In this document: one piece after another, positions 37,149 to 58,452 of the stretch
Layout: each line of letters starts with the position of its first letter
Position numbering within the stretch: the first letter of the stretch is position 1
Source: Gammaproteobacteria bacterium
GTDB lineage: Bacteria > Pseudomonadota > Gammaproteobacteria > Steroidobacterales > Steroidobacteraceae
NCBI GenBank assembly: GCA_025358295.1
Contig: JANYJY010000041.1
Coordinates: 1 to 64,000 of the forward strand
Length of the DNA stretch: 64,000 nucleotides
Reading direction: 5' to 3'
Position numbers and translations under genes: made by a program
Notes under the pieces: model-generated
Told to the model about the DNA's origin: nothing
What the model saw: the letters and a program-made list of their open reading frames with translations, nothing else
The model's database searches: none

Positions 37149-38258
37149 ATGAGATGCAGTCGATTTCAAGCTGTCTTGGCGCTGCTGCTGTTGATCGGCC
37201 TGGCGGTGGGCTGCGAGACGGGAGCCGCCGCCGAAGATAAGCGCCTTTTCATCTACAATTGGACGGACTTCATCGGCCGCAACACCATCGCGGAATTCGA
37301 GAAAGAGACCGGGATCAAGGTGATCTACGATGTCTACGACTCCGAGGAGACCATGGATGCGCGGCTCCTGGCGGGCAGTTCCGGCTACGACATCGTGATC
37401 GCCTCCACGGAGTACTTTGGGCGCGAGATCAAGGCGGGCGTGTATATCCCGCTGGATAAGACCCAATTGTCCAATTGGAAGAATGTCGACCCGCGAATTC
37501 TTGCCATCCAGGCGGTCCACGATCCCGGAAATCTGCATTCCGTGCCTTATATGCATGCCATCAACGGGTTTGCTTACAACGTGGAAATGGTCAAGGCACG
37601 GATGCCGAACGCGCCGATCGACAGTCTCGACATGATTTTCAAACCCGAGATCGTGTCCAAGTTCGCCGACTGTGGAGTGACCTGGCTCGACTCCGCAGCG
37701 GACACCTTGTTGTTGGCCATGAAATATCTGGGCCTGGATCCAAATTCTACCAGGCCTGAGGACTACAAGGCCGCCGAGCAGCTGCTCTTAAAGGTGCGCC
37801 CGTACATTCGTTCCTTCGATTCCTCCGAGTACCTGAATGGGCTCGCGAACAAGGAAATTTGTGTCGCGATGTCCTGGTCCAGCGACTATGCGCTGTCCAG
37901 GGCGCGGGCACGGGCTGTAGGCGTCGATGTCAATCTCGCCTTTACGGTGCCCAAGGAAGGTGCCAATCAGAATTTCACGTCGCTGCTGATTCCCGAGGGA
38001 GCGCCGCATTTGCAGGCTGCCTATGCATTCATCAACTTTATATTACGACCGGATGTGATTGCCGGAATCACCAATGACATCTTCTACGGCAACGACAACC
38101 TCGCCTCGCGCTCGTTGGTCGATCCCAGTATCCTTCGCGATGTGACGCTGTATCCGACGCCAGAAATCGAGGCGCGACTGTTCAGGGCGGACGAGGCCTC
38201 GGCCGCCACAGAACGCATACGGACACGTACTTGGACTCGGGTGAAGACCGCCAAATGA
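37149..38258 (+). CDS. Polyamine-type ABC transporter substrate-binding protein (PotF/PotD-like)
   Basis: A 369-residue periplasmic binding protein. The signal peptide spans about residues 1-28; AAA before EDKR is a plausible cleavage site, and a cysteine at GLAVGC makes a lipoprotein possible but weak. LFIYNWTDFIG, TGIKVIYDVYDSEE and AGSSGYDIVIAS are typical of spermidine/putrescine binders. Its permeases are 38897-40676 on the other strand, and a matching ATPase lies at 51110. The HD-domain gene overlaps its stop (ATGA). Related proteins also bind modified or quaternary amines, so the ligand is open. Confidence 0.9.
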   Translation: MRCSRFQAVLALLLLIGLAVGCETGAAAEDKRLFIYNWTDFIGRNTIAEFEKETGIKVIYDVYDSEETMDARLLAGSSGYDIVIASTEYFGREIKAGVYIPLDKTQLSNWKNVDPRILAIQAVHDPGNLHSVPYMHAINGFAYNVEMVKARMPNAPIDSLDMIFKPEIVSKFADCGVTWLDSAADTLLLAMKYLGLDPNSTRPEDYKAAEQLLLKVRPYIRSFDSSEYLNGLANKEICVAMSWSSDYALSRARARAVGVDVNLAFTVPKEGANQNFTSLLIPEGAPHLQAAYAFINFILRPDVIAGITNDIFYGNDNLASRSLVDPSILRDVTLYPTPEIEARLFRADEASAATERIRTRTWTRVKTAK

Positions 38259-38878
38259 CCGTCAAATTAACTGAAGATCCGAATTCCGATATCGGCGTCG
38301 TCAGCTTTCGGCGCATGCAGGACGGCACGCGCGAGGATTACGAATTGCTGGAGCGAGCGGAGCGCGGGTTCGTGCGTACGCTGCCGGATCGCCTGCTCGT
38401 CGCACTGAAGAAACTGGAGGACGGCTTGCAGGGATATGCAGTGACACGGCTGGAGCATTCGTTGCAGGCCGCGACGCGCGCTCTGAAGGACGGCGCCGAC
38501 GATGAGCTCATCGTCGCCGCCCTTATTCACGATATCGGTGACGATTTCGCGCCCTACAATCATTCGGAGGTGGCCGCTGGGATCATTCGTCCCTATGTGC
38601 GTCCCGAGGTGACGTGGATCGTCGAACAGCACGGCGTGTTTCAGACGTACTATTACGCGCATCATTACGGGCGTAACCGGAATGGACGCGAGAAGTTTCG
38701 CGATCACCCCTCGTACCAAGCCTGCAAGGACTTCTGTGCCAACTGGGACCAATGCTCGTTCGATCCCGACTATGTATCCGAGCCGTTGAGTACTTTTGAG
38801 CCGAAGGTGCGCGAGATTTTCAGCCGCACGGCTCATGATCCACGCTACGTGGGCATGCCGCAGTCGGGCAGGCCCTAG
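38255..38878 (+). CDS. HD-domain protein, candidate diiron oxygenase (PhnZ/MIOX-like)
   Basis: A 207-residue cytoplasmic protein. His68 in RLEHSLQ, His92-Asp93 in IHDIGDD, His103, His126 in EQHGVF and an aspartate at 170 or 172 follow the H...HD...H...H...D order used by HD-domain mixed-valence diiron oxygenases; the 24-residue gap from the first His to HD matches what I recall for PhnZ. Such enzymes cleave hydroxylated aminophosphonates, including a trimethylammonio compound in TmpB. A plain phosphohydrolase is the alternative. The ATG at 38255 overlaps the potF stop, so its substrate is probably what PotF imports. Confidence 0.75.
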   Translation: MTVKLTEDPNSDIGVVSFRRMQDGTREDYELLERAERGFVRTLPDRLLVALKKLEDGLQGYAVTRLEHSLQAATRALKDGADDELIVAALIHDIGDDFAPYNHSEVAAGIIRPYVRPEVTWIVEQHGVFQTYYYAHHYGRNRNGREKFRDHPSYQACKDFCANWDQCSFDPDYVSEPLSTFEPKVREIFSRTAHDPRYVGMPQSGRP

Positions 38879-38896: not shown

Positions 38897-39727
38897 TCAG
38901 CGCTCGGCCATCTGCGCGTCCATCACGCGCTGACGCTCGGCACGACGCATCAAGTAACCGGCGAATAGTACGCAGACTCCAACCAAGCAGATCATCACGC
39001 TGGCGAGCGCATTGACATCGGGGCTGACGCCGAGCTTCACCTTCGAGAAAATCACCATAGGCAGAGTGCTCGCGCCGGGACCCGAGACGAAGCTGGATAT
39101 CACGAGATCATCGAGCGAGAGTGTGAAACTGAGCAGCCAGCTCGAGGCCAGCGCCGGCACGAGGCTCGGCAGAGTGGTATCGATGAAGGCACGGACCGGG
39201 CCGCTGCCCAAGTCCATGGCGGCCTCTTCCAATGAGCGGTCGGCGCTCGCCAGCCGGGATTGCACGGTGACCGTGACATAGGCGCTGCAGAACGCGATGT
39301 GCGCGATGACAATGGTCGTGAATCCGCGATGCGGCCAGCCCAACAGATGCAACATGGAGACGAACAGCAGCAATTGCGTGATGCCGGTGATGATTTCCGG
39401 CATCACCAGCGGCGCGTTGACCATGCCGGTGAGCAGCAGCCGGCCGCGAAATATCTTGAATCGCACCAGGGCAATCGCGGCCAGCGTACCGAGGATGACC
39501 GCGCCGGTCGACACCACCACGCCGATTTTCAACGACAACCATGCTGCGTCGAGAATCTGGTCGTTGTGCATCAGCTTGCCGTACCAGCTGGTCGAGAATC
39601 CTCCCCAGACACTCACCAGCGCGGAGGCGTTGAAGCTGTAGCCGATTAAGACCAGGATCGGAATGTAGAGAATCGCGATACCGATGCAGAGCATCGACAT
39701 CAAGAAGGGCGAAATACGGTTTTCCAC
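38897..39727 (-). CDS. potC: Polyamine-type ABC transporter permease PotC
   Basis: A 276-residue inner-membrane permease with six helices. The EAA loop that docks on the ATPase is RSLEEAAMDLGSGPVRAF. The GTG at 39727, six bases after GAGG and two bases from the potB stop, is preferred over the longer frame starting at 39793, which reads into potB. It forms a heterodimer with the upstream permease. Its gene is convergent with the HD-domain gene, with 18 bases between stops. Confidence 0.92.
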   Translation of the reverse strand: MENRISPFLMSMLCIGIAILYIPILVLIGYSFNASALVSVWGGFSTSWYGKLMHNDQILDAAWLSLKIGVVVSTGAVILGTLAAIALVRFKIFRGRLLLTGMVNAPLVMPEIITGITQLLLFVSMLHLLGWPHRGFTTIVIAHIAFCSAYVTVTVQSRLASADRSLEEAAMDLGSGPVRAFIDTTLPSLVPALASSWLLSFTLSLDDLVISSFVSGPGASTLPMVIFSKVKLGVSPDVNALASVMICLVGVCVLFAGYLMRRAERQRVMDAQMAER

Positions 39728-39728
39728 C

Positions 39729-40676
39729 TTAAGCCTCGAGCTGCTTGGTGCTGTAGTGTTGGTACAGGGCGATGGGACCGACCAGCAGCACAAGGAACGC
39801 GATCGCCACTGCGGAGGCCACCGGCCAGTCGCGATTGCCGAAGAACTCGTCCCAGAGCACGCGTCCTATCATCAGATTGTCCGGCCCTCCGAGCAGGGTC
39901 GGGATGACGAACTCACCGATCGCTGGAATGAACACCAGCATCGAGCCGGCAATGATTCCGGGCATGGACAGGGGCAGTGTCACCTCGATGAAGGCGCGCC
40001 AGGGCGGACTGCCGAGATCGGCAGCCGCTTCCAACAAGGAATGATCCAGTTTCTCCAGAGTGGCGAACAACGGCAGTACCATGAAGGGAAGATAGGAGTA
40101 GATGATTCCCAGGTACACGGCAAACGTCGTGCGCATGATCTGCAGAGGATGGTCGATGACGCCCAGCCACAGCAGCGCGGTATTCAGCAAGCCGGTCTCA
40201 CGAATGATTCCCTCGAGTGCGTAAACACGCAGCAGGAACGAGGTCCAGAACGGCAGAATGATAATAAGCAGCAGGATGCTCTGTGTGCTCTTGGACGTTC
40301 GGGCGATGGCGTATGCCATGGGATAGCCCAAACCCAAGCAAATGACGGTCGAGAAGAATGCGGTCTTTAGGGAATAAAGGTAGGAAAGGCCATAGACTTC
40401 GTCGCTGAACAAGTACTTGAAGTTACCGAGATTCAGCGTCAGATGGATGTGCCAGTCGGGGCTGACGGATAGAATGTCCGTGAAGGGGGGCACGCGCACC
40501 GCGGTGTCCGCGAAGCTGATAACCAGGGCAAACCCGAACGGAATGAGAAAAAACACCAGCAGAAAGAGCATGGGCGGCAAGATAATGAGCCATTTCCCCT
40601 GGCGCTTGAGCCAATCCCCGCGCGGCGGGCGCGGCAGCGCGTTCGCGGTTGCCTCATCGTAAATCGCTGGTGTCAT
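39729..40676 (-). CDS. potB: Polyamine-type ABC transporter permease PotB
   Basis: A 315-residue permease with six helices after a basic cytoplasmic N-terminus of about 30 residues. The EAA loop is HSLLEAAADLGSPPWRAF. The ATG at 40676 follows an AGG site. The divergent TetR-Rieske fusion gene starts only 18 bases away, so the promoters must overlap each other or the coding regions. The transporter parts are split: potF on the plus strand at 37149, potBC here, ATPase at 51110. Confidence 0.92.
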   Translation of the reverse strand: MTPAIYDEATANALPRPPRGDWLKRQGKWLIILPPMLFLLVFFLIPFGFALVISFADTAVRVPPFTDILSVSPDWHIHLTLNLGNFKYLFSDEVYGLSYLYSLKTAFFSTVICLGLGYPMAYAIARTSKSTQSILLLIIILPFWTSFLLRVYALEGIIRETGLLNTALLWLGVIDHPLQIMRTTFAVYLGIIYSYLPFMVLPLFATLEKLDHSLLEAAADLGSPPWRAFIEVTLPLSMPGIIAGSMLVFIPAIGEFVIPTLLGGPDNLMIGRVLWDEFFGNRDWPVASAVAIAFLVLLVGPIALYQHYSTKQLEA

Positions 40677-40694
40677 AAGAACCTAAGCCGAAGC

Positions 40695-42341
40695 ATGCGT
40701 AAACCTTCGAAAAAATCCCCTAAACCCAAGCCAATCCCGCGGGCACGCAATGCCCACAGCCGGCAACGGCAGCGCTTGATCGACGCGTGCATTTCCGCCC
40801 TGCACCTCTACGGGCCGTCGCGAACGACGGTGGAAAAAGTAACGGCCTTCGCAAAAATGTCTCCCGGCATCGTGCGATTCTATTTCGCCTCCAAGGCGGC
40901 CATGCTGGTGGCCACTTTGCAATTCCTGTCCACCGAGTTTGAGGAACAATTATTGGTTCCTGTTTCCCGGCTCAAATCCCGGCCGGTAGCGGCATTGGAA
41001 TTGATGGTCGATTTATATCTCGACCCGGAAATCGCCAGTCCCCGCAAAGTTTCGGTTTGGTATGCGTTCTGGGGCGAGGCGAGTTCACGCCAGGAATACT
41101 ACGATATTTGCGGGCAGAAGGACGAGAGCTTTGCCGCGCTGGTGCGCGAACTCATTGAAAGACTGATCGTTGAAACCTCCCAGCAACAATTGGACCCGGA
41201 CGGCATCGCGCTGGGGCTCATCGGGGTCTTGGAAATACTGTGGCAGGACCTCGCCTTCCGCTCGGAGGCCGATATCGACCGTGCCGCCGTCAAGCGTCGA
41301 GCAATGGCTTATTTGCGGTCCGTTTTCCCGGGTCAATTCACTGCTCCAGAGAACGATGACGGGGCGTCGGCAGCCGACAAACGGCTGCCTGGCTGGGCCT
41401 ATGCCAACTCCCGCTTATTCGCGATCGAACGGGAGACCTTGTTCCAGGATACTTGGCTGCTGGCCGCTCATCAGGCGCAGATTCCGCAGCGTGGCGATTT
41501 CCTCGGCGTCGACCTCGGCATCGAGCGCGTTTTGGTGGTTCGCGATGCTGCCGGAGAGGTGCGCGCGTTTCGCAACAGCTGCAGCGAGGCGCCGCATATC
41601 CTAATGCCCGCCGCTGCCGGGAATGTCGACAGCATTCGTTGCGCCGTGCATGGCCTGCAATTCGAACTCGACGGTCGGCGTCGCGGTGCCCGGGGCACAG
41701 CTGACCTGACAGCCCTGGAATTGCGCATGGCCGGCGATCTGATTCTGGTGCGTTCCGCGCAACGGCGGCGGCCGGAGGCGGGCGCTCCGGATGTGTGGAA
41801 TGATTTCTCGCCGCCCGCGGGCTCGCGGCTGCTTAGGGCGCCAGTGGAGACGATGATTGCGGCAGATTGGAAGCTCGTAATCGAACAATGGCTGGATTCG
41901 GCGGTCATCGGCGGATTGCGCCGGCCGGAACAGGCCGAGTGGAGCGTTCGCGCCTACCGGCACCTGATGGGCCAAGAGACGGATTTTCAATGGCAGCGGC
42001 GCTTCATGGCGCCGGTTCACCTCATCGAGCTGCGTCCCGACGGATTTCGCGTTCTGCAGGTGCTACCGACGGCCGCTGGCCGCAGCTTAGTGCGTGAGCA
42101 TAATTATACGCTGTGCGGCGCAGACCGGACCGCGCGCGCCGCGTGTTACGTGGCAGCGCGGCTCAATCCCTATGTACGGCCGTCGACGATTGCAATCGCG
42201 GAATCGACCCAGCAGGGCATCGTTACTTTCGGCCACACCGCGGCGAATGGAGCCCCGGGTGGGGCCGCGTCGGTGTTCCGTCGTGAATTGGCGGCGCTCA
42301 TGCCGTTGCTGTGGCTCGCCCGGGCACCGAACGACCTTTGA
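40695..42341 (+). CDS. Fusion regulator: BetI-like TetR + degenerate Rieske oxygenase domain
   Basis: One uninterrupted 548-residue frame. Residues about 22-215 are a TetR repressor: helix-turn-helix TTVEKVTAFAKMSPGIVRFYF, then a BetI-like ligand domain with RKVSVWYAFWGEA. Residues about 230-548 align along their length with the Rieske oxygenase at 43933-45099 (shared: LP.W.Y.NS, VRDA.GE.R.F.N). The Rieske CxH is C296-S-E298, so one [2Fe-2S] histidine is gone while C316 and H319 remain. The two iron-binding histidines of the enzyme (H207, H212) correspond to V404 and R409. Catalysis should be lost with the fold kept. I infer a DNA-binding sensor that reads the oxygenase substrate or product. 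The ATG at 40695 has a weak binding site; no other start fits. Confidence 0.85.
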   Translation: MRKPSKKSPKPKPIPRARNAHSRQRQRLIDACISALHLYGPSRTTVEKVTAFAKMSPGIVRFYFASKAAMLVATLQFLSTEFEEQLLVPVSRLKSRPVAALELMVDLYLDPEIASPRKVSVWYAFWGEASSRQEYYDICGQKDESFAALVRELIERLIVETSQQQLDPDGIALGLIGVLEILWQDLAFRSEADIDRAAVKRRAMAYLRSVFPGQFTAPENDDGASAADKRLPGWAYANSRLFAIERETLFQDTWLLAAHQAQIPQRGDFLGVDLGIERVLVVRDAAGEVRAFRNSCSEAPHILMPAAAGNVDSIRCAVHGLQFELDGRRRGARGTADLTALELRMAGDLILVRSAQRRRPEAGAPDVWNDFSPPAGSRLLRAPVETMIAADWKLVIEQWLDSAVIGGLRRPEQAEWSVRAYRHLMGQETDFQWQRRFMAPVHLIELRPDGFRVLQVLPTAAGRSLVREHNYTLCGADRTARAACYVAARLNPYVRPSTIAIAESTQQGIVTFGHTAANGAPGGAASVFRRELAALMPLLWLARAPNDL

Positions 42342-42396: not shown

Positions 42397-43896
42397 ATGA
42401 ATTTGACGTCATTGACTACGAAAGATTGGCATGCGCGCGCCGCTGCCCTGCGCTACGAGACACGACACTTCATCGACGGTCAATACGTGGATTCGATCGC
42501 CGGCGGGCGCTTCACGGTGGTAAATCCCGCCACGGGAAAGCCCTTATGCGAGGTGAGCGCCGGAACCGCCGCCGACATCGACGTCGCGGTTGCGGCGGCA
42601 AAACGCAGCTTCGCCTCGCGGGTCTGGAGCCGCATGGCGCCGCGCGATCGCATGGCAATCATGCAAACCTACAGCCGGCTGTTGGAAGCAAACAATGAGA
42701 AATTCTCGTTGCTCGACACGCTGTGCATGGGAAAACCGATCACTGACATGGTCACCATCGATGTGCCGGCGGCGGCGCGCAATTTCGCCTATTTCGGCGA
42801 GTTGATCGACAAGATCGACGGCACTGTCACCGCCACGGCTCAGGACGCGTTCCATTACATTTTGCGCGAGCCGCTGGGTGTGGTCGGCTGCATCGTGCCC
42901 TGGAATTATCCCCTGTTGATGGCGGCCTGGAAAGTCGCGCCGGCTCTCGCCGCCGGAAACTCGGTCGTGCTGAAACCCGCGGAACAGTCGCCGTTGTCGG
43001 GGTTGCTGATGGCGCAATTATTCGTGGAGGCGGGCGGTCCGCCGGGCGTGTTCAATGTGGTCAACGGCATGGGCGAAACCGCCGGCGCCGCGCTGGCGCT
43101 GCACAATGACGTCGCTAAAATCGCATTCACGGGCTCGACCGAGATCGGTAAGCAAATGCTGATTTATGCAGGCCAGTCGAATATGAAACGAGTGGCACTG
43201 GAATGCGGCGGCAAAACTCCGCAGATATTCCTGGCCGACCTGCCGGATCTCGATACGGCGGTGACCTACGCGATCAACGGTATCTACGGCAATATGGGCG
43301 AGGTCTGCAATGCAGGCTCGCGCTTGTTGCTCGATCGTCCCATTGCCAAGGAATTTCTGGCGCGATTCATCGAGCGCGGCAAGGATATGTATCGAGCCGG
43401 TGACCCGTTCGATCCCACGACCAATCTGGGCCCGTTGGTAACCGCTTCGCATCGTTCGCGCGTCATGAGCTACATCACGCGCGGCAAGGCGGAGGGCGCC
43501 CGGCTGGAATTCGGCGGCAACACGCCGGATTTGCCCGGAGCCTATGTCAATCCGACCCTGTTCAGCGGCGTGAACAATCGCATGGCCATTGCCCAAGAAG
43601 AGATTTTTGGGCCGGTTGCGGCCGCCATTGAAGTCGACGGATTGGCCGAGGCGCTTACGGTGGCCAACGATTCGATCTACGGATTGGCCGCGGCGGTATG
43701 GACCCGTGACCTGAATGTCGCGCATAAGACCGTCCGCGACCTCGAGGCAGGTGTCATTTGGGTCAACTGCTTCGACCACGGTGACATGACGCAGCCCTTC
43801 GGCGGCTACAAGCAGTCGGGCCAGGGCCGCGACAAGTGCGTGGAAAGTCTGCTCTCGTACACCCAGACGAAATCGGCCTGGATCAACCTGGGCTAG
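42397..43896 (+). CDS. Aldehyde dehydrogenase (betaine-aldehyde type)
   Basis: A 499-residue NAD(P)-dependent aldehyde dehydrogenase. Catalytic Cys304 is in GEVCNAGSR, general base Glu269 in LECGGKTPQ, and the cofactor segment is FTGSTEIGK. Overall it resembles betaine-aldehyde and gamma-glutamyl-aminobutyraldehyde dehydrogenases. The ATG at 42397 has GGGAG nine bases upstream; the open frame continues back into the fusion regulator gene but is out of frame with it. It lies 55 bases after that gene and is probably controlled by it. Substrate inferred: an amino- or ammonio-aldehyde from the oxygenase or aminotransferase steps. Confidence 0.92.
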   Translation: MNLTSLTTKDWHARAAALRYETRHFIDGQYVDSIAGGRFTVVNPATGKPLCEVSAGTAADIDVAVAAAKRSFASRVWSRMAPRDRMAIMQTYSRLLEANNEKFSLLDTLCMGKPITDMVTIDVPAAARNFAYFGELIDKIDGTVTATAQDAFHYILREPLGVVGCIVPWNYPLLMAAWKVAPALAAGNSVVLKPAEQSPLSGLLMAQLFVEAGGPPGVFNVVNGMGETAGAALALHNDVAKIAFTGSTEIGKQMLIYAGQSNMKRVALECGGKTPQIFLADLPDLDTAVTYAINGIYGNMGEVCNAGSRLLLDRPIAKEFLARFIERGKDMYRAGDPFDPTTNLGPLVTASHRSRVMSYITRGKAEGARLEFGGNTPDLPGAYVNPTLFSGVNNRMAIAQEEIFGPVAAAIEVDGLAEALTVANDSIYGLAAAVWTRDLNVAHKTVRDLEAGVIWVNCFDHGDMTQPFGGYKQSGQGRDKCVESLLSYTQTKSAWINLG

Positions 43897-43932: not shown

Positions 43933-45099
43933 TCAGGCGAATTGCTGGGGCGCGTTAGCCAGGGCGAATTCGGGAATTCGCTCCCGCAGCAAGTTGTGGA
44001 ATTCGAGCATCCAGCGCTCCAGCTGCGACAAGGGTCCCGGCCTATAACTGCCGGATTGCAGTCCGCGCTGCACTCGGCCGCACAGCCACTTATCTTCGTT
44101 GTTGACCTGAGTGTTGATGCGCGAGCTCAAATAGCGCACGGCGCGCATCTCGCGCCGCTCGTCGGGCAATCCAAACACGCCGCCGCGCACCATGCACTTT
44201 CCGGGTCCCGCGGGCAGCAGCTGAAAGAAATCCATCTGGTCCGGAAATATATCGATCCCAAGATTCGGTAACGCGCTGTAGAAGCGCCAGCAGCGGCGCT
44301 GTGCCTCCGGCAGATGCGTCGCCACGCTGCCGATCATGCGTTGATACAGGCCTTCGGCCCAACGGGGCGATGACTGCTCACGCAGCCAACTGACGCCGCG
44401 GGCGACGCCGGGTACCGACGCTTGGTCTTCGTAGTCCGGCGTAAACATGCGGTACAGGCCGGGGTGGCCGATGGGCACGTGGTACGACTCGAGATAATTG
44501 TCCATCGCAATCTTCCAATCGACGTTCCATATCTCCTGGCTGATGGGGCCGAGCGGCATCATCTCCTCGAAACGATACGGCGCAAATTCCTCTGCGAGTT
44601 TTCCCCATAGCTTCGCCACGGGCGGCGGGTCGCCCGCCAGGCAGACGAACACGAAGCCGAAGGCAATATCGGTGCGCACGGGTCGCAGACCGTGGTCGGC
44701 ACGATCGAGCCCTGGAAAGCTTTCGCGCACCGGCATGCCGATCAATCCGCCGTCATGACGGTAGGTCCAGCCGTGATAGGGGCAGGTGATGGTCGCGGGA
44801 CAATTCCCCGAGCCATCCAACAAGCGCGCGCCGCGATGCCGGCAGACATTGTGGAAGCCGCGTATCGAGCCGTCGCGGTCGCGCAATACCATGACGCTTT
44901 CCGGCCCCAAATCGAAGGTTTCGTAGTCGCCTGCATTGGGAATGGAATTGATGTGGCACACGATCTGCCAACTCGGCATGAGGATGCGTTCGAGTTCGAG
45001 CCGATGCAGTTCGCTGTTGTTGTAAACCCAGGCGGGCAGTGCGCGTGGCAAGGCTTTCGGGGCCTCGTCGAAGCGCTTCGCGACGGATAGGTTGGTCAT
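43933..45099 (-). CDS. Rieske non-haem iron oxygenase, alpha subunit (quaternary-amine type)
   Basis: A 388-residue oxygenase. The [2Fe-2S] ligands are Cys86, His88, Cys106 and His109 (CRHRG and CPYHGW). The mononuclear iron site has His207 and His212 in NYLESYHVPIGH, with the acid probably in the DQMDFFQLLP stretch. The C-terminal EDKWLCGRVQRGLQS resembles glycine-betaine and carnitine-type N-demethylases/monooxygenases more than aromatic dioxygenases. The ATG at 45099 follows GGGGAAA. No reductase gene is nearby, so electrons must come from elsewhere. It is divergent from the aminotransferase operon across a region with two dyads, and is the intact relative of the fusion regulator. Confidence 0.9.
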   Translation of the reverse strand: MTNLSVAKRFDEAPKALPRALPAWVYNNSELHRLELERILMPSWQIVCHINSIPNAGDYETFDLGPESVMVLRDRDGSIRGFHNVCRHRGARLLDGSGNCPATITCPYHGWTYRHDGGLIGMPVRESFPGLDRADHGLRPVRTDIAFGFVFVCLAGDPPPVAKLWGKLAEEFAPYRFEEMMPLGPISQEIWNVDWKIAMDNYLESYHVPIGHPGLYRMFTPDYEDQASVPGVARGVSWLREQSSPRWAEGLYQRMIGSVATHLPEAQRRCWRFYSALPNLGIDIFPDQMDFFQLLPAGPGKCMVRGGVFGLPDERREMRAVRYLSSRINTQVNNEDKWLCGRVQRGLQSGSYRPGPLSQLERWMLEFHNLLRERIPEFALANAPQQFA

Positions 45100-45116
45100 G
45101 GCTTTCCCCGACGACG

Positions 45117-45134
45117 ATTATATGGTCATTTAAT
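45117..45134. promoter_or_regulatory. Candidate operator 1, Rieske promoter
   Basis: ATTATATGGTCATTTAAT is an 18-base dyad of two 7-base arms around four bases, with one mismatch. It lies 18 bases before the Rieske ATG. Its left arm read on the minus strand gives TATAAT at 45122 to 45117, a perfect -10 box for the Rieske gene, with no good -35. A regulator bound here would block or remodel that promoter. Confidence 0.6.
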
Positions 45135-45270
45135 GTACGCCGTCGGATGCGGTGTTGGCAAGTCAGCGCAATGCAGCACGACAATTCACGCTCAAATCAG
45201 CAATTCGAAGCTACGATTGCTCGAGTTTTTTTGCGACGAACCACCTTGAATGGCGGACGCGGGAGTTGAA

Positions 45271-45288
45271 ATTATATAACCATATAAT
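45271..45288. promoter_or_regulatory. Candidate operator 2, aminotransferase operon promoter
   Basis: ATTATATAACCATATAAT is a perfect dyad (7-4-7) and matches operator 1 in inverted orientation, including the GGT/ACC centre. Its right arm contains TATAAT at 45283-45288, a perfect -10 for the plus-strand operon starting at 45369. No -35 is evident. The two sites are centred 154 bases apart. Confidence 0.62.
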
Positions 45289-45368
45289 AACCCTGGACGG
45301 GGCCTGCGGCGAGTGCTACGGTCGCATAAAATCGTATCGATTCGCGACTCAATCGTAAGGGGGATGTC

Positions 45369-46697
45369 ATGGCCAGAAAACTGACCAAGAGCAATGCGCA
45401 TTTCAAACGCGCCGTCAAACGTCTGCCGCTCGGTGTGGCATCCAATTTCCGTTACTGGGGCGATGACCGCACCATCTATGTGAAAAGCGGCATGGGCGCC
45501 CGCATCACCGATCTCGACGACAATAATTACGTCGACTATCGCATGGGCTACGGCCCGGCGATTCTCGGCTATGCGCATCCTGAGGTCGATCAAGCCGCGC
45601 GCGAAGGCATGGCTGTCGGCGGCGTGTTCGCACTGTCGACCGAACGCGAACTGACGGTGGCCGATCGGATCTCAAAAATGGTACCGGCCGCGGAACTCGT
45701 GCGCTTCTCCAACTCAGGCACCGAAGCGGTCATGGCCGGATTGCGCCTGGCGCGCGCCTACACCGGAAAAGACGACTACGTGATTCTCGAGGGCAGCTAT
45801 CACGGTTTGTTCGATGCGGCCATGTGGTTCACGCCGATGGACAAGTGGTCGCAGGTCGGCGATCCGGAAGTCAAGCCATACAGCGAAGGCGTGCCGATCA
45901 GCACGCGCAGTTTCGCGCACTTCGTGCAGGCCAATGACGCGAATCAGCTGGAGGACGTCTTCAAGCGGCATTCGAGCCGAATCGCCTGCATGCTGATCGA
46001 GCCCATCATGGGCAATTGCCTGGGCATTGCGGCGGAGCCTGAATATCTGCGCGCGGCGCGTGAGTTGTGCGACAAGCATGGCGTGGTGCTGCTCATCGAC
46101 GAAGTAAAAACCGGTTTTCGCGTCGCCCGCGGCGGCGTGCAGGAGCTCTATGGGGTCAACGCCGATCTTTGCACTTTCGCCAAGGCAGTTGCCAACGGCT
46201 ATCCGATTTCCGTGCTGGCGGGACGCGAGGAGATCATGCGCAAGATCGGCAAGGGCGTCGCGCATGGCGGCACCTACACCGCGCATTCGATCTCGCTCGC
46301 CGCCGCCGAGAAATGCCTGCAAATTCTCGACGAAACGGATGCATTGGAGCGCATCGCCGATTACGGCACGCGTCTGCGCAACGGCATGCGCACCGTGCTG
46401 GGCGCACGCGGCATCGCGCACAGCTTTGTCGGCCACCCGTCCATGAGCGGCCTGTATTTCGCCCACGAGCCGCCGCGCAATTATCGCGATTGGAAGGGCA
46501 GCGACTATTCGTTCTACGACGCCATGGCGCAGGTGCTGCATGACGAGGGCGTTCTGTGCGAGCCGGATTCGCGTGAGCCGTGGTTCGTTTCGGCGGCGCA
46601 TGATGCCTCGTGTCTCACCGATACATTGAAGGCCTTCGAAATCGCGGTCGACGCGACGTTGAAGGCGAGCGGCGCCTCGCACAAAGTAACCGCTTGA
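45369..46697 (+). CDS. Class III aminotransferase (glutamate-1-semialdehyde aminomutase-like)
   Basis: A 442-residue PLP enzyme. The lysine is residue 272 in TFAKAVANGYP; LLIDEVKTGFR carries the cofactor aspartate. The sequence sits nearer the HemL-like branch than the two aminotransferases at 31.6-34.2 kb, but it lies in a catabolic operon, so a haem role is unlikely. The ATG at 45369 follows an AAGGGGG site. The next gene starts at or just after its stop. Substrate inferred to be an amino compound handled by the flavoproteins and GcvT protein downstream. Confidence 0.88.
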   Translation: MARKLTKSNAHFKRAVKRLPLGVASNFRYWGDDRTIYVKSGMGARITDLDDNNYVDYRMGYGPAILGYAHPEVDQAAREGMAVGGVFALSTERELTVADRISKMVPAAELVRFSNSGTEAVMAGLRLARAYTGKDDYVILEGSYHGLFDAAMWFTPMDKWSQVGDPEVKPYSEGVPISTRSFAHFVQANDANQLEDVFKRHSSRIACMLIEPIMGNCLGIAAEPEYLRAARELCDKHGVVLLIDEVKTGFRVARGGVQELYGVNADLCTFAKAVANGYPISVLAGREEIMRKIGKGVAHGGTYTAHSISLAAAEKCLQILDETDALERIADYGTRLRNGMRTVLGARGIAHSFVGHPSMSGLYFAHEPPRNYRDWKGSDYSFYDAMAQVLHDEGVLCEPDSREPWFVSAAHDASCLTDTLKAFEIAVDATLKASGASHKVTA

Positions 46698-46708
46698 GCG
46701 GCAGCGGC

Positions 46709-48307
46709 GTGAAAACTCCGGCGGGCCTGGACGCCGTCATCGTCGGGGCCGGCCACAACGGCTTGGTTGCCGCCTGTTATCTGGCGCGCTCGGGACTCAA
46801 GGTGTTGGTCCTCGAGCGCCAGCCCTATATCGGCGGGGCGGCCGTCAGCCGCCGGCTGTACGAGGACTTCACCTACTCGAATTGCTCCTACGTATGCAGC
46901 CTGCTGCGCCCGGAAATCATCCGCACGCTTGAGCTGCCGAAATATGGCTTGCAGGTGATTCCTTACGAAGGCGGCTGCACCATGATGCAGGGCGGGGGAC
47001 ATCTGGCCCTGTACGACAACCACGATGCGCTGCGGCGCGAGATCTCCCGGCATTCGAAGCGCGATGCGGAGGCCTACGACCGTTACTCGCGCGACGTGAT
47101 GCGTCAATGCAAATTCATCAAGCCGCTGCTGATGCACGAGCCGCCCGACCCGACGTCGTTCAAGCCTCGCGATCTCATGGAGTTGCTGTATTTGGGCAAG
47201 CGCTTTCATAACCTGGGCGAAAAGCGCATGTACGACACCTTGCGCTTCTGGACCATGAGCGCAGCGGATTTTCTCGACGAGTATTTCGAGAGCGAAATCG
47301 TCAAGGCGCATTTTGCAGGCAGTTCCATCATCGGCACCGCATTGGGGCCGCGCTCGCCCGGTACGGCTTACGTGCTGCTGCATCACTACATGGGTGACAT
47401 CGACGATACGGTCGGCGCCTGGGGGTTCGCGCGCGGCGGCATGGGCGCGATCTCCAACGCGCTCGGTGCGTCCTTCGAAGCCAGCGGCGGCACCATCCGC
47501 AGCGGTGCGCCGGTCGCAAAAATTCTAGTGCGTAACGGCCGCGCGTCCGGCGTCGCGCTGGCCGACGGCGAGGAAATTCGCGCGCCGTTGGTGATTTCGA
47601 ATCTCGACGTGCGCCGCACCTTTCTCGAGACCATGGACGCCAAGGATTTGCCGGAAGAGTTCCTGGGCCAGGTGAAGAATTTCAAGATTCGCGGTTCATC
47701 GGGAAAGCTCAACATCGCCCTGGATGGTCTGCCGCAATTTCCGGCCATTCCACCGGGCTCGCCCTGTACGCGCGGCGATATGCATGTGACCGACACCATC
47801 GAAATGATGGAGCGCGCCTATGACGATTGGAAGGACGGCCGCTGGTCGCGGGCGCCTTACATCGACATGCTCATTCCCTCGCAGATCGATCCGACCATGG
47901 TTCCCGCTGGCAAGCACTATATGTCGGTATTCGTTCAGTACTGCCCGTACGAACTGGCCGACGGCCCATGGGATGCCGCCAAGCGCCAGGCTTTCGGTGA
48001 TACCGTCATCAACACCATTGCGCAGCACAGTCCGAATTTCAAGAATCTGATTCTGCACGCCGAGATACGTACACCCTGGGATATCGAGAACGAAGTGGGC
48101 CTTACGGAAGGCAATATTTTTCAAGGTGAATTGACCATGGATCAGCTGCTGTTCAACCGGCCTGTGCCGGGCTACGCGCAGTATCGGTCGCCGGTGCGGG
48201 GCGTCTATATGTGCGGTTCCAGCACGCATCCGGGCGGCGGCGTCATGGGCGCGCCCGGCGCCAACGCGGCGCGCGCCGTGCTGCGCGATCTCGGCAGGGC
48301 GCCGTGA
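46709..48307 (+). CDS. CrtI-like FAD-dependent oxidoreductase (first of tandem pair)
   Basis: A 532-residue flavoprotein of the phytoene dehydrogenase-like group. VIVGAGHNGLVAACYL is the FAD Rossmann motif, LERQPYIGGAA follows, and the C-terminal GVYMCGSSTHPGGGVMGA is the second FAD segment. GTG at 46709 is used; a TTG at 46694 overlapping the previous stop would add five residues. Nothing suggests carotenoid synthesis nearby, so I infer oxidation of an amine or its derivative. The next gene is a clear paralogue overlapping its stop (GTGA). Confidence 0.86.
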   Translation: MKTPAGLDAVIVGAGHNGLVAACYLARSGLKVLVLERQPYIGGAAVSRRLYEDFTYSNCSYVCSLLRPEIIRTLELPKYGLQVIPYEGGCTMMQGGGHLALYDNHDALRREISRHSKRDAEAYDRYSRDVMRQCKFIKPLLMHEPPDPTSFKPRDLMELLYLGKRFHNLGEKRMYDTLRFWTMSAADFLDEYFESEIVKAHFAGSSIIGTALGPRSPGTAYVLLHHYMGDIDDTVGAWGFARGGMGAISNALGASFEASGGTIRSGAPVAKILVRNGRASGVALADGEEIRAPLVISNLDVRRTFLETMDAKDLPEEFLGQVKNFKIRGSSGKLNIALDGLPQFPAIPPGSPCTRGDMHVTDTIEMMERAYDDWKDGRWSRAPYIDMLIPSQIDPTMVPAGKHYMSVFVQYCPYELADGPWDAAKRQAFGDTVINTIAQHSPNFKNLILHAEIRTPWDIENEVGLTEGNIFQGELTMDQLLFNRPVPGYAQYRSPVRGVYMCGSSTHPGGGVMGAPGANAARAVLRDLGRAP

Positions 48308-49905
48308 GCGTGGCGGCACCGGCTGCACCATCGCGCTACGACTGCGTCGTCATCGGCGGTGGTCACAATGGACTGGTCTGCGCCGCCACGCTGGCTCGCG
48401 GCGGCCGCTCGGTTCTGCTGCTCGAGGCTGCGGCTCAAGTGGGCGGAGCGGCGCTGACGCGCGAGTTTGCGCCTGGGTTTCGCGTGTCGGCCGGCGCGCA
48501 TTTGCTGCATCTGATGCCCGCGGATCTGTTGCGCGACTTACGGGTGGAATCGCATGGGCTCGAATGGGCGGCGCGGGGGATGAGCACCACCGCGTTGTTG
48601 CCCGGCGGCGCGCGGCTGGTGGTGGGGGAACTCGAACTTGGCGATGGCGCGTTGCAAGGCCTGTCGACCAAGGACGCGCAGGCTTATTCGGCGTACGCAG
48701 CGCGCATGCGGCGGTTTGCCGCGGCTCTGGTACCGATGTTCTCGCGCGTGCCGCCGCGTCTGGGCACCACGGATTGGTCGGATCGCCTGGCCATGCTCAA
48801 GCTTGGCTGGCAGATCCGCCGGTTGGGCAAGCGCGACATGCGCGAACTGCTGCGTATCGGCGGAATGAATGTCTACGACCTGCTCGAAGAGAATTTCGAT
48901 TCTGCCGCGCTCAAGGGAGCCTTGGGCTTCGACGCCGTGCTCGGCGCCAATTTCGGGCCACGCTCTCCCGGCACGGTGCTGACGCTGCTGTATCGACTGG
49001 CCGCGGAATCTGCCGCAGGCGCCGCGGGTTTGTCTCAGCCGAAGGGTGGCATGGGTGCGCTATGCAACGCGCTGGCCAAGGCCGCGAGCGCTGCCGGGGC
49101 CGTCATTCGCACTGCTGCACCGGTGGCGCGCATTTCGGTGGAAGGCGATCGCATCGCGGGTGTCGTGCTCGAGTCCGGCGAAAGCATCGCCGCGCACACT
49201 GTGATTTCCAGTGCCGATCCCAAGACGACTTTTCTGAGGTTGCTGGGCGCGCGCTACCTCGACACGGGCTTCGTGCGTCGAGTCGACCATATCCGCTCGC
49301 GGGGACTCGCAGCCAAGCTGCACTTGGCGTTGAATCGCCTGCCGGCGTTTGCCGGCGTGGGCGAGGCGAATTTGCGCGGACGATTGCTTATCGCGCCGTC
49401 GTTGCAGCACATTGAGCATGCGTACAACCATGCCAAGTACGGAGAATTTTCCGCCGCGCCGGTCATGGAGATCACGGTTCCTACCGTGAATGACGCCACG
49501 CTGGCGCCCGCCGGCGGGCACGTGCTGTCGGCGATCGTTCAATATGCCCCCTATACCCTCAAAGCGGGTTGGCAGGCAGGCAAGCAAGCGTTCATGGATG
49601 CCGCGTTGGATACCTTGGAACAATTCTCACACGGACTTCGCGGCAGTATCGTTGGTGCGGAGTTGCTGACTCCTGACGATATGGAGCGGGAATTCCGCAT
49701 GAGCGGCGGTCATTGGCATCACGGGGATCTGGCCTTCGACCAATTCCTGATGGTTCGCCCGGTGCCCGGCGCGGCTCAGTATCGAACACCTGTGGACGGG
49801 CTGTTCCTGTGCGGAGCCGGCTGCCACCCCGGCGGCGGAGTCATGGGCGTTGCCGGCCGCAATGCCGCGCAGCAAGTACTCACAATGGGCATGAAATCAC
49901 CATGA
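48304..49905 (+). CDS. CrtI-like FAD-dependent oxidoreductase (second of tandem pair)
   Basis: A 533-residue paralogue of the preceding protein, with VVIGGGHNGLVCAATL for FAD binding, LEAAAQVGGAA and a C-terminal GLFLCGAGCHPGGGVMGV. Both copies share KGALGFDAVLGANFGPRSPGT-like central segments. The GTG at 48304 overlaps the previous stop. The pair may form a heterodimer or act on successive intermediates. A GcvT-family gene follows through an ATGA overlap, which would suit a flavoprotein dehydrogenase passing one-carbon units to folate. Confidence 0.86.
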   Translation: MSVAAPAAPSRYDCVVIGGGHNGLVCAATLARGGRSVLLLEAAAQVGGAALTREFAPGFRVSAGAHLLHLMPADLLRDLRVESHGLEWAARGMSTTALLPGGARLVVGELELGDGALQGLSTKDAQAYSAYAARMRRFAAALVPMFSRVPPRLGTTDWSDRLAMLKLGWQIRRLGKRDMRELLRIGGMNVYDLLEENFDSAALKGALGFDAVLGANFGPRSPGTVLTLLYRLAAESAAGAAGLSQPKGGMGALCNALAKAASAAGAVIRTAAPVARISVEGDRIAGVVLESGESIAAHTVISSADPKTTFLRLLGARYLDTGFVRRVDHIRSRGLAAKLHLALNRLPAFAGVGEANLRGRLLIAPSLQHIEHAYNHAKYGEFSAAPVMEITVPTVNDATLAPAGGHVLSAIVQYAPYTLKAGWQAGKQAFMDAALDTLEQFSHGLRGSIVGAELLTPDDMEREFRMSGGHWHHGDLAFDQFLMVRPVPGAAQYRTPVDGLFLCGAGCHPGGGVMGVAGRNAAQQVLTMGMKSP

Positions 49906-51104
49906 CTGATTCCCCGGCACCGCATTACAAACAGCCGCTGCTGAAGACCCCGTTCCATGAGCGTGCGCGGGCCTTGAGCCAAATCGACAGCTTCATTCCA
50001 TGGGCCGGATACACCACCGTCGATGTATTCACCACGATGGAGCAGGAATATTTCGCGGTTAGAAATGCCACCACGCTGTATGACTTGACGCCGATGGTGA
50101 AGTACCGCGTATCGGGTCCCGATGCGGTGCCCTACCTGAACCGCCTGGTCACGCGAGATGTTGCGAAGCTCAAGCCGGATCGCGTCGCCTATGTCGTGTG
50201 GTGCAACGATGCGGGTCATCTCATCGATGACGGCACGATATTCCGCTTGGGTGCGGGCGAGTACCGAATTTGCACCGCCGAACGCCAGATCGATTGGCTG
50301 CTGGACTCGGCGATCGGCTTCGACGTCCAGATCGGCGAAGTCACTGAGCAGATTGCGGCCCTTGCGGTCCAAGGTCCGACCTCCTGCGCCATGCTCAAGG
50401 CGGCGGGCCTGCGCGGCATTGAATTGCTCAAGCCGTTTGAAATCGGCTATTTCTCGCTCGGCGAACATCGGTTGACGCTGTCGCGCACGGGGTTTACCGG
50501 CGACTTGGGTTATGAGGTCTGGATGGATCCGGCTGCGGCCGAGACCATATGGGACATTTTGATGGCGGCGGGCCGCTCGCGCGGCATTCGTGCCATCGGC
50601 TCACAGGCGTTGAATATGGCGCGCATCGAAGCCGGATTTATCATGCCGAACGTCGATTTCGTGTCCGCCGAGCACACGATTCGCACCGGCCGCGACCGCT
50701 CGCCTCTGGAACTGGGCTTGGGCTGGCTGGTCGATTTCAACAAGGGTCACTTCACTGGCCGCCGGGCTTTGCTCACGGAGAAGAAACAGGGGTCGCGCCG
50801 GCAACTCGTCGGCCTGGACATCGCCGGCAACAAGCCGGCCCACAACGCCCTGATTTACACCGATGACGGCGGCAAGCGTGAAATCGGCAGCGTCACCTCG
50901 GCAATGTGGTCACCGACTTGCAAGCGCAACATCGCCCTTGCTATCGTCGATGCACCACATTTCCAAGTCGGATCGACGGTTTGGGCGGAAATCTATTTGA
51001 ATCGTGAACTCGTATGGGAGCGTCGAATGTCGCGAGCGCAGGTCGTGGAGCGACCCTTTTTCGTGCCTGAACGGCGCCGCGCGACCCCGCCAGCGGAGTT
51101 CTAG
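49902..51104 (+). CDS. GcvT-family aminomethyltransferase-like protein
   Basis: A 400-residue folate-binding protein of the glycine cleavage T-protein/dimethylglycine oxidase C-terminal family. YDLTPMVKYRVSGPDAVPYLNRL opens the fold; SRTGFTGDLGYEVW and FNKGHFTGRRAL are family segments. It would accept a methylene group from an N-methyl amine onto tetrahydrofolate. The ATG at 49902 overlaps the flavoprotein stop; the open frame upstream reads across that gene. With the Rieske oxygenase and flavoproteins it supports demethylation of a methylated amine. Confidence 0.86.
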   Translation: MTDSPAPHYKQPLLKTPFHERARALSQIDSFIPWAGYTTVDVFTTMEQEYFAVRNATTLYDLTPMVKYRVSGPDAVPYLNRLVTRDVAKLKPDRVAYVVWCNDAGHLIDDGTIFRLGAGEYRICTAERQIDWLLDSAIGFDVQIGEVTEQIAALAVQGPTSCAMLKAAGLRGIELLKPFEIGYFSLGEHRLTLSRTGFTGDLGYEVWMDPAAAETIWDILMAAGRSRGIRAIGSQALNMARIEAGFIMPNVDFVSAEHTIRTGRDRSPLELGLGWLVDFNKGHFTGRRALLTEKKQGSRRQLVGLDIAGNKPAHNALIYTDDGGKREIGSVTSAMWSPTCKRNIALAIVDAPHFQVGSTVWAEIYLNRELVWERRMSRAQVVERPFFVPERRRATPPAEF

Positions 51105-57837: not shown

Positions 57838-58452
57838 ATGCCGAAGATCGTCGACCACGCCGCGCGCCGCGATGAAATCGCCCAGGTGGCCTGCCGGGTG
57901 GTGGCGAATTACGGCTTCGAGCAGGCTACGGTGGCGCGCATTGCGCGGGCGGCCGGCTATACCACCGGCATGGTTGCGCACTATTACGAGTCGAAGCAGG
58001 AAATAATCCTGGCTGCGCTGCGCTTGATGTTGTTGCGTATAGAAGAGCGGCTCACGCGCGAACGCGAGCGCGATGAGGCGAATCTGTTGGAGGCGCTGTC
58101 CGAGGCGCTGGCCATCGACTCGCAGCGATTTACCGAATGCGCTTTTTGGATGGCCTTCTGGGGGCAGGTATCAGCGGACAAGAAACTCAAGCGGCTCAAT
58201 GCCTGGGTGCACCGTGAATACATGCGCCTATTCGAGCGTTGTTTTTCCGAGTACTGGTCCGAATGGTCGGCTTGGCCGCAAGCGACTCGGGACCAAGTAC
58301 TGAGATCAGTGGTGACCTTCATGAACGGCTTGACGGCAAGCGCCGTCACCAGTCCGCGCGACTGGCCCGCGGACATGCAAGTGGAGCAACTGCGGCTGCA
58401 GTTGGATCTCTTGCGTCAATGGGCCGGCAAGCGCGCGACGAAGTCTAGATGA
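57838..58452 (+). CDS. TetR-family regulator, BetI-like
   Basis: A 204-residue repressor. The helix-turn-helix is ATVARIARAAGYTTGMVAHYYESK, and the ligand domain has ECAFWMAFWGQ as in BetI. BetI senses choline; here the neighbours suggest carnitine or a related betaine. The ATG at 57838 lies 25 bases after the carnitine dehydrogenase gene, on the same strand. It is the same TetR type as the N-terminal half of the fusion regulator at 40695 but has no extra domain. Confidence 0.88.
   Translation: MPKIVDHAARRDEIAQVACRVVANYGFEQATVARIARAAGYTTGMVAHYYESKQEIILAALRLMLLRIEERLTRERERDEANLLEALSEALAIDSQRFTECAFWMAFWGQVSADKKLKRLNAWVHREYMRLFERCFSEYWSEWSAWPQATRDQVLRSVVTFMNGLTASAVTSPRDWPADMQVEQLRLQLDLLRQWAGKRATKSR

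Follow-up and report, generated by a model that had tools for sequence, protein, structure and literature searches.

Why should a transcriptional repressor carry an oxygenase that can no longer oxygenate a substrate? This question is raised by a gene at positions 40695-42341 of a 64,000-nucleotide stretch of DNA (hereafter, the window) from a gammaproteobacterium of the Steroidobacteraceae, in which a TetR-type regulator and a Rieske-oxygenase-like half share one reading frame. A first-pass annotation took the Rieske half to be a duplicate of the oxygenase encoded nearby, which had lost catalysis, kept its substrate pocket and become the input domain of the regulator. Having compared metal sites, putative operator, rates of change and phylogeny across related loci, we lean, with moderate confidence, towards a different answer: the gene would encode a TetR repressor of an amine-oxidation operon with a non-catalytic Rieske accessory module, descended from a repressor-oxygenase fusion.

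The fusion gene and its metal sites

The gene and its recognisable parts are as follows.

40695-42341, plus strand: TetR-Rieske fusion gene, ATG to stop, 548 amino acids, no internal stops; the same fused frame in dozens of relatives
40758-40904, plus strand: TetR helix-turn-helix (HTH) region, residues 22-70 (TetR_N, E 1.2e-4)
40983-41327, plus strand: BetI-type ligand and dimerisation domain, residues 97-211 (Pfam TetR_C_6)
41382-41729, plus strand: Rieske-like domain, residues 230-345 (Pfam Rieske, E 4.2e-11; PDB sequence matches to Rieske oxygenases)
41580-41597, plus strand: first cluster loop, C296-x-E298-x-P300-H301, in which C296, P300 and H301 do not vary and position 298 has lost its His ligand
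41640-41651, plus strand: second cluster loop, C316-x2-H319, retained by alignment and per-column change counts
41730-42338, plus strand: remnant of the oxygenase catalytic domain, residues 346-548; V404, R409 and T498 replace the iron ligands and 35 residues are lost

The first-pass annotation had described a single open frame with a BetI-like TetR and a Rieske-like half, and both the open reading frame (ORF) and the Pfam matches bear this out. TetR_C_6 (PF13977) matches residues 97-211 at E 2e-13, with 51 bits against a cutoff of 27, and Rieske (PF00355) matches residues 253-337 with 43.1 bits against a cutoff of 20.3. The TetR_N match covers residues 28-73 and reaches 22.2 bits, slightly below its cutoff of 24, while Ring_hydroxyl_A (PF00848) matches residues 416-509 at E 0.007 with 16.7 bits, below its cutoff of 24.9. 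Among 29 fusion proteins, 21 of them degenerate like that of the window and 8 with intact metal sites, PF13977 matched all 29, as did, by sequence only, PF00355; TetR_N matched 28 at E <= 0.01. Residues 22-135 score 69.2 with the BetI model TIGR03384, whose equivalog cutoff is 201.3; going by these matches, the TetR half is of BetI type, with BetI itself excluded by the TIGR03384 score. With NF058607 (CntA/GbcA) the fusion scores 73 versus 670. It lacks what marks a Rieske oxygenase alpha subunit, namely, CXH...CX2H, a 2-His-1-carboxylate site and a PF00848 match above cutoff. Judged from sequence alone, its pattern is that of a DNA-binding domain joined to an enzyme-derived domain without catalysis.

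Two observations concern the start of the gene. At 40676-40695, the start codons of the fusion and of a divergent permease-like gene lie 18 bases apart, so either the promoters lie inside coding sequence or the true starts differ. The frame of the fusion also stays open for 74 codons upstream of its ATG.

The correspondence of C296-x-E298, V404 and R409 with C86-x-H88, H207 and H212 of the neighbour oxygenase (43933-45099) is as the first-pass annotation had it, and that oxygenase does keep all its ligands (C86, H88, C106, H109, H207, H212 and D336). The third iron ligand, Asp336 in the neighbour, is T498 in the fusion. The fusion retains C296, C316 and H319, plus H301 five residues after C296, where the neighbour has Ala. 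Because these four residues are retained, the Rieske site, as aligned, is altered rather than erased.

We followed these positions in an alignment of 32 degenerate fusions, from which pieces shorter than 380 amino acids and duplicates had been left out beforehand, together with L009, L039, L054, L065, L067, L068, L076 and L108, whose Rieske half is absent or unrecognisable; four rows (L022, L030, L031 and L102) end before the catalytic domain does. C296, P300, H301 and C316 occur in 32/32 rows and H319 in 30/32. The position of the lost Rieske histidine holds E in 7 rows, R in 6 and H in 5, so the CxE motif itself is not conserved. In the 28 rows that span the iron site, histidine occurs at the V404 position only in L093 and at the R409 position in none, with a gap in six, and Asp occupies the third-ligand position in 7. 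The loss of the catalytic iron site therefore extends beyond the window protein: the mononuclear site is dead across its clade.

Changes counted on a 29-row tree of degenerate Rieske halves give the same picture. C296, P300, H301 and C316 require no changes and H319 requires 2, where the median of the 283 columns scored is 11; 13 are required at the position of the lost histidine, 14 at V404 and 10 at T498. Twelve of the 283 columns are unchanged (C296, P300, H301, C316, G327, L338, A390, W392, P440, P458, S504 and F528). C296, C316 and H319 are canonical ligands, and H301 was singled out post hoc from the data. H301 is not newly gained, since both histidines occur in 9/12 intact fusions and CntA also has an equivalent. 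The strong retention of C296, H301, C316 and H319 suggests that a metal, a cluster or a cysteine pair is still of importance, and the site may still bind a cluster or metal through a histidine in a shifted position, as CX4H...CX2H.

The catalytic domain has fared differently. The spacing from W392 to P458 is 66 residues in the fusion and 101 in the neighbour oxygenase; it is 99-102 in 12/12 intact fusions and 38-93 in 28 degenerate rows. The 35 missing residues lie after the iron-binding segment, and the alignment with the neighbour over its whole length, as first proposed, does not hold. This shortening argues against a preserved substrate pocket.

A predicted operator for the TetR half

The region 45100-45368, between the divergent neighbour oxygenase and an aminotransferase gene, had been proposed as the control region. 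It holds a conserved palindrome (TTATATGNNCATATAA-like) in two copies, which we predict to be the operator.

45271-45288, strand not applicable: putative operator 2, a palindrome without mismatches (ATTATAT-N4-ATATAAT) that precedes the aminotransferase gene
45117-45134, strand not applicable: putative operator 1, the same palindrome with a single mismatch, a short way before the start of the oxygenase gene

At up to three mismatches, the window contains two matches (45117 and 45271) against 0.26 expected, a number reached in 3/100 shuffles. At the same threshold, orthologous divergent regions contain 26 distinct sites in 14/17 distinct regions, with 1-2 copies each, and no palindrome was found in the same loci outside those regions. 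At up to four mismatches, 38/47 sites fall in divergent regions, the window's own being counted twice (as itself and as L002). Counts over whole genomes do not discriminate; only the position upstream of the aminotransferase gene is informative. The window's own genome has two further palindromes elsewhere, with 2 mismatches, and at up to 2 mismatches the pattern and a reversed-pattern control give 4 matches each. Across the genus, some match occurs in 20/23 genomes, the controls giving 0-6, and two genomes with matches, G006 and G022, lack a fusion of the window type.

A leave-locus-out matrix (score of at least 15, 400 bases upstream of the aminotransferase gene) finds a site in 16/16 loci of the window TetR clade, among them L033 and L035, which lack the Rieske half, and in 0/6 loci whose TetR belongs to other clades, a comparison that is not independent of kinship. 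Within the genus, the aminotransferase gene matches at E <= 1e-100 in 15/23 genomes, and in 14 of these 15 (own genome included; G019 is the exception) the palindrome lies within 300 bases with at most one mismatch. G001 and G016, whose tails are truncated, also have it. With that caveat of kinship, the palindrome appears to be tied to the TetR half.

In L015, L018, L021, L033 and L035, the distance between the starts of the two palindromes is exactly 31 bases, or some three turns of the helix; in the window and the other two-site loci, it is 97-176 bases. Four loci with intact fusions (L045, L046, L051 and L135) have sites scoring at least 12 within ~100 bases before the match start. Most intact loci are without such sites and scattered hits of 11-14 occur elsewhere, and we draw no conclusion on autoregulation from them. 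A sigma-70 scan at the operators gave one weak match, on the minus strand from 45161 to 45132, which touches site 1 and was not used.

Role and origin of the Rieske half

The two halves of the protein differ in how fast they change. Between the window and its degenerate-clade relatives, identity is 56-87% in the TetR half and 27-64% in the Rieske half. In 13 degenerate pairs, the ratio of nonsynonymous to synonymous substitution rates (dN/dS), obtained by counting and rough because synonymous changes are near saturation in several pairs, is 0-0.13 for the HTH region (11/13 pairs scorable), 0.02-0.15 for the TetR ligand domain (residues 71-215), 0.09-0.54 for the Rieske domain and 0.19-0.62 for the catalytic remnant, which is the fastest part in 11/13 pairs. 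For the window and L012, the values are 0.093 for the Rieske domain, 0.299 for the catalytic remnant and 0.058 for the neighbour oxygenase. Three scorable intact pairs give 0.08-0.25 (Rieske), 0.21-0.27 (catalytic) and 0.21-0.35 (TetR ligand domain), and a fourth is scorable at the HTH only. Since the degenerate Rieske halves overlap the intact pair L109/L110 (0.25 and 0.27), it is mainly the ratio between parts of one protein, and not the absolute level at the low end, that carries the contrast.

The Rieske half is also, by its record in orthologues, optional and repeatedly truncated or absent. L033, L034 and L035 carry this gene next to the corresponding permease genes, with its frame stopping where the TetR half is complete; on the TetR tree, all three fall within the degenerate clade (100/97 and 99/83). 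In L106, L107, L032/L108, L038 and L039, the protein is shortened or unrecognisable past the TetR half; the gene is interrupted by an in-frame stop in L022 and by a frameshift in L040, both possibly assembly errors. Separately, L049, L050 and L127 encode TetR proteins of 302 amino acids at loci without a recognisable Rieske remnant. In L049 and L050, 79 and 76 residues follow the TetR match, and the tree places both with the intact fusion L051, perhaps through independent loss.

In the repressor reading that we favour, the TetR half would sit on 45117-45134 and 45271-45288, between the divergent oxygenase and aminotransferase operons, and would repress the oxygenase and the aminotransferase/CrtO/GcvT genes until a pathway amine or aldehyde entered its own BetI-type ligand domain and released it. 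The C-terminal half would derive from a working repressor-oxygenase fusion, and the window lineage would have lost the iron site and part of the pocket, making oxygenation impossible. Most likely the Rieske half would survive as an accessory that keeps its fold, holds a metal or cluster and adjusts the action of the repressor, and several lineages would have dropped it while keeping the operator.

It could be, alternatively, that the Rieske half has no role at all and is the leftover of a bifunctional enzyme, wearing away behind a TetR half that is the sole regulator. Its fast evolution would be expected of such a leftover, as would the contracted W392-P458 spacing, the truncations, the in-frame stop and the frameshift, the clean absence in L033-L035 and the operator kept in L033 and L035. 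Yet dN/dS is below 1 in all 13 degenerate pairs, the four cluster-loop residues are among the least-changed columns, and the frame stays open in 29 rows of the Rieske tree, although rows were selected for that. We consider a roleless leftover rather unlikely.

Another explanation would give the retained residues a specific task, and we offer it only tentatively. A re-ligated Rieske-type cluster, CX4H...CX2H (C296/H301/C316/H319), would gauge electron flow, and its redox state, set by the pathway reductase, would modulate the TetR half such that the operon opened only when the live oxygenase had substrate to turn over. If this were true, the protein would be a redox-sensing TetR of the Fe-S kind, built out of a dead oxygenase, and its ligand pattern would be new to the Rieske fold.

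The model of the first-pass annotation, in which the dead oxygenase keeps its pocket and senses for the pathway of the live enzyme, finds the fusion, the loss of catalysis, the pathway context and the operator all as it requires. Against it, the supposed pocket region is 35 residues shorter, varies in length over the clade and belongs to the part that evolves fastest. As an input domain the Rieske half would moreover be set beside a complete and strongly conserved BetI-type ligand domain in the TetR half, and orthologues without it keep the operator. We regard this model as improbable.

The accessory-module reading places a competent fusion before the degenerate one, and fusions with intact ligands exist. 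All 12 long fusions outside the window TetR clade in the alignment, classed by their own motifs and including near-copies (L041-L044), have CXH...CX2H, HX4H and Asp complete; in a further three, found by the class search (L124-L126), pattern matching picks out the Rieske and HX4H motifs. The 12 belong to records of Inquilinus limosus, Pseudoxanthobacter, Kiloniellaceae and other alphaproteobacteria, to one gammaproteobacterial and one marine record (L045 and L052) and to two genomes (L109 and L110) of the family that the window is from. Both of those tested, L042 and L046, pass all four Pfam cutoffs, and the closest solved relative of L042 by sequence is the carnitine monooxygenase CntA (6y8j, E 1.3e-35). 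We infer that these proteins would be active oxygenases. The first-pass annotation held that orthologues with an intact metal site would undo its case; related fusions outside the window clade have one and those inside do not, so the history changes and the finding stands. One intact record, L043, is titled Mycobacterium sp. KBS0706, and its fusion is almost the same as the Inquilinus limosus one; probably the label is wrong or the record a mixture.

Some intact-type loci have gene neighbourhoods that resemble that of the window. ABC (ATP-binding cassette) importer homologues occur in L041-L044, L051, L052, L077 and L135; HD, GcvT and CrtO homologues in L132; GcvT in L037; and aldehyde dehydrogenase in L133 and L134, where a separate oxygenase directly adjoins the fusion. 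None of these homologues lies near L045, L046 or L131, and the neighbours of L042 include sugar-type enzymes.

On a TetR tree of 103 rows, degenerate fusions, intact fusions and a few unfused TetRs form one clade (100/99); two of the unfused ones, L055 and L056, adjoin an oxygenase gene. On the Rieske tree, the degenerate halves are monophyletic (100/99, 29 rows) with long branches, and 22 neighbour oxygenases, all with the Rieske and HX4H motifs, form a clade without them (100/98). Constraining the degenerate halves together with 9 of the 12 intact-fusion halves, nine picked after the Rieske tree was known, raises the log-likelihood (lnL) by 0.80 and is accepted by the approximately unbiased (AU) test (p-AU 0.584). 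Diagnostic columns that separate the two candidate parents favour the same nine, with the same post hoc choice, by 15 to 6. From the tree, the AU tests and the columns, the order is likely to have been fusion first and loss of catalysis later, with some doubt left by the long branches.

The duplication proposed at first, a copy of the adjacent oxygenase fused independently of the intact fusions, has in its favour that the genes are adjacent, that the intact-fusion halves are not one group, so that a single fusion event is improbable, and that constraining the degenerate halves to the 22 neighbour oxygenases gives a p-AU of 0.0605, above the 5% rejection level. That constraint lowers lnL by 26, however, and the separate neighbour clade, the column count and the TetR clade shared by degenerate and intact fusions all speak against it. 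Duplication of the neighbour is thus disfavoured, and we consider it improbable.

Several observations weigh against the repressor with an accessory module. Sequence change in the Rieske half is several times as fast as in the TetR half, which is what a useless, weakly constrained domain would show; two of the 32 degenerate rows carry Asp at H319; and the L039 remnant, as aligned, is without either cysteine. No palindrome with up to three mismatches occurs at the fusion's own start in the window scan, which leaves autoregulation unsupported here, another TetR encoded at 57856-58182 could bind the palindromes, and kinship underlies the operator comparison (16 versus 6 loci). The AU test stops short of rejecting the neighbour as parent. 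The Rieske halves of L045, L051 and L052 group with stand-alone oxygenases (100/100); the fusion therefore appears to have arisen more than once or to have come apart, which weakens a single simple descent.

A search for the same domain order shows the TetR-Rieske fusion to be common to dozens of relatives. A scan of genome contigs gave 79 related loci among the best 80 matches listed. Matches occurred in 50 of 60 relatives searched, some of whose genomes coincide with contigs of that scan, with a long fusion in 17 genomes by the frames listed; 51 open frames match both TetR and Rieske, duplicates and contig-cut frames counted. At E <= 1e-30, matches occur in 6 of the 369 genomes searched in the class, and 4 of these are long fusions (own genome, G178, G271 and G398), so at this threshold the architecture looks rare outside its own lineage. 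No plasmid record covered 80% of a degenerate or of an intact fusion. That two genes were joined by an error of sequencing or assembly, for which no supporting evidence was found, can be set aside with near certainty, because the same fused frame occurs in many separate assemblies, including named Inquilinus limosus strain records of the intact type.

Genetic context and known systems

The genes around the fusion are listed here in map order.

37149-38258, plus strand: PotF-like polyamine-type ABC binding protein, a conserved upstream neighbour
38231-38878, plus strand: HD-domain protein, PhnZ/TmpB-like (weak matches below cutoffs), a conserved upstream neighbour
38897-40676, minus strand: two ABC-transporter permease-like genes, from ORFs and gene order
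42397-43896, plus strand: aldehyde dehydrogenase, PuuC/betaine-aldehyde-dehydrogenase-like, 55 bases after the fusion
43933-45099, minus strand: stand-alone Rieske oxygenase, CntA/GbcA-like, ligands intact by family matches and alignment
45369-46697, plus strand: pyridoxal phosphate (PLP) aminotransferase/aminomutase-like protein (GntE/HemL-like), first gene of the divergent operon
46610-48307, plus strand: CrtO-like flavin adenine dinucleotide (FAD) oxidoreductase 1, mechanical ORF start
48211-49905, plus strand: CrtO-like FAD oxidoreductase 2, mechanical ORF start
49713-51104, plus strand: GcvT-like aminomethyltransferase/demethylase, mechanical ORF start

The permease-like pair is presumably PotI/PotH. 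Because an ABC importer, an HD-domain protein, a Rieske oxygenase, an aldehyde dehydrogenase, a PLP enzyme and a GcvT-like protein occur together, the gene set suggests the oxidation of a methylated amine or a polyamine.

Related partners are arranged in other ways in the same genome. About 5 kb past the window (C12, ~68.7-70.8 kb; L009:4726-6843), it encodes a second fusion of a BetI-type TetR to a catabolic enzyme, an aldehyde dehydrogenase, in a frame of 706 amino acids with TetR_N, TetR_C_6 and Aldedh (E 7.8e-180) and with the ELGGK and GQVC motifs present; several relatives have TetR matches within open frames of 705-724 amino acids. Elsewhere in this genome (L010; C72:28000-42000), a stand-alone BetI-type TetR of 246 amino acids lies between two Rieske oxygenase genes, so that both kinds of partner are present there without being fused.

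We found no description of a TetR-Rieske fusion in the titles and abstract openings listed by searches of the open literature, one of which listed 25 of 434 papers. Enzyme-to-regulator evolution is mostly argued from one end product. Here, the steps can be seen together in related genes: in some the regulator lies beside an enzyme, in others it is joined to an enzyme that looks competent or to a dead one, and in still others the enzyme has gone. A candidate operator accompanies the series and offers a test. If the retained Cys and His residues hold a cluster, the protein would be a natural variant of Rieske ligation and possibly a redox-sensing TetR.

Regulators that share a polypeptide with a catabolic enzyme or an enzyme-like domain include PutA and MocR/GabR, whose folds differ from those of the fusion, and BetI is not known to have a C-terminal oxygenase half. 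In its TetR_C_6 match and its amine/aldehyde-dehydrogenase context, the fusion resembles this choline-responsive TetR repressor (TIGR03384). Like CntA (6y8j, matched at 1.4e-10), it has a His at +5 from the first cysteine, and its best PDB match is the biphenyl dioxygenase 1uli (4e-14). Unlike CntA/GbcA, it is without the first Rieske His, the iron histidines, the carboxylate and 35 catalytic-domain residues.

On this evidence, the fusion would belong with the enzyme-derived domains found in one-polypeptide regulators, and the pocket-sensor mechanism first stated for it is not supported. BzdR (PMC3602430) combines an HTH with a shikimate-kinase-like domain that lost its activity on becoming a regulator. 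Both proteins join a DNA-binding domain to a catalytically dead, enzyme-derived one, and BzdR regulates a catabolic pathway. In BzdR, however, the shikimate-kinase-like domain is the effector-binding one, whereas the fusion already has a complete TetR ligand domain, and its enzyme half is a Rieske oxygenase that is optional and exists in intact and lost versions. A second parallel is ThnA3, a Rieske-type ferredoxin whose redox state has been proposed (PMC3771892) to signal the availability of dioxygenase substrate. In both systems, a Rieske-type protein may report to the regulation of an oxygenase pathway; by the same account, ThnA3 is a separate ferredoxin that acts via ThnY on the LysR-type activator ThnR, whereas here the Rieske-like module lies inside the TetR protein itself.

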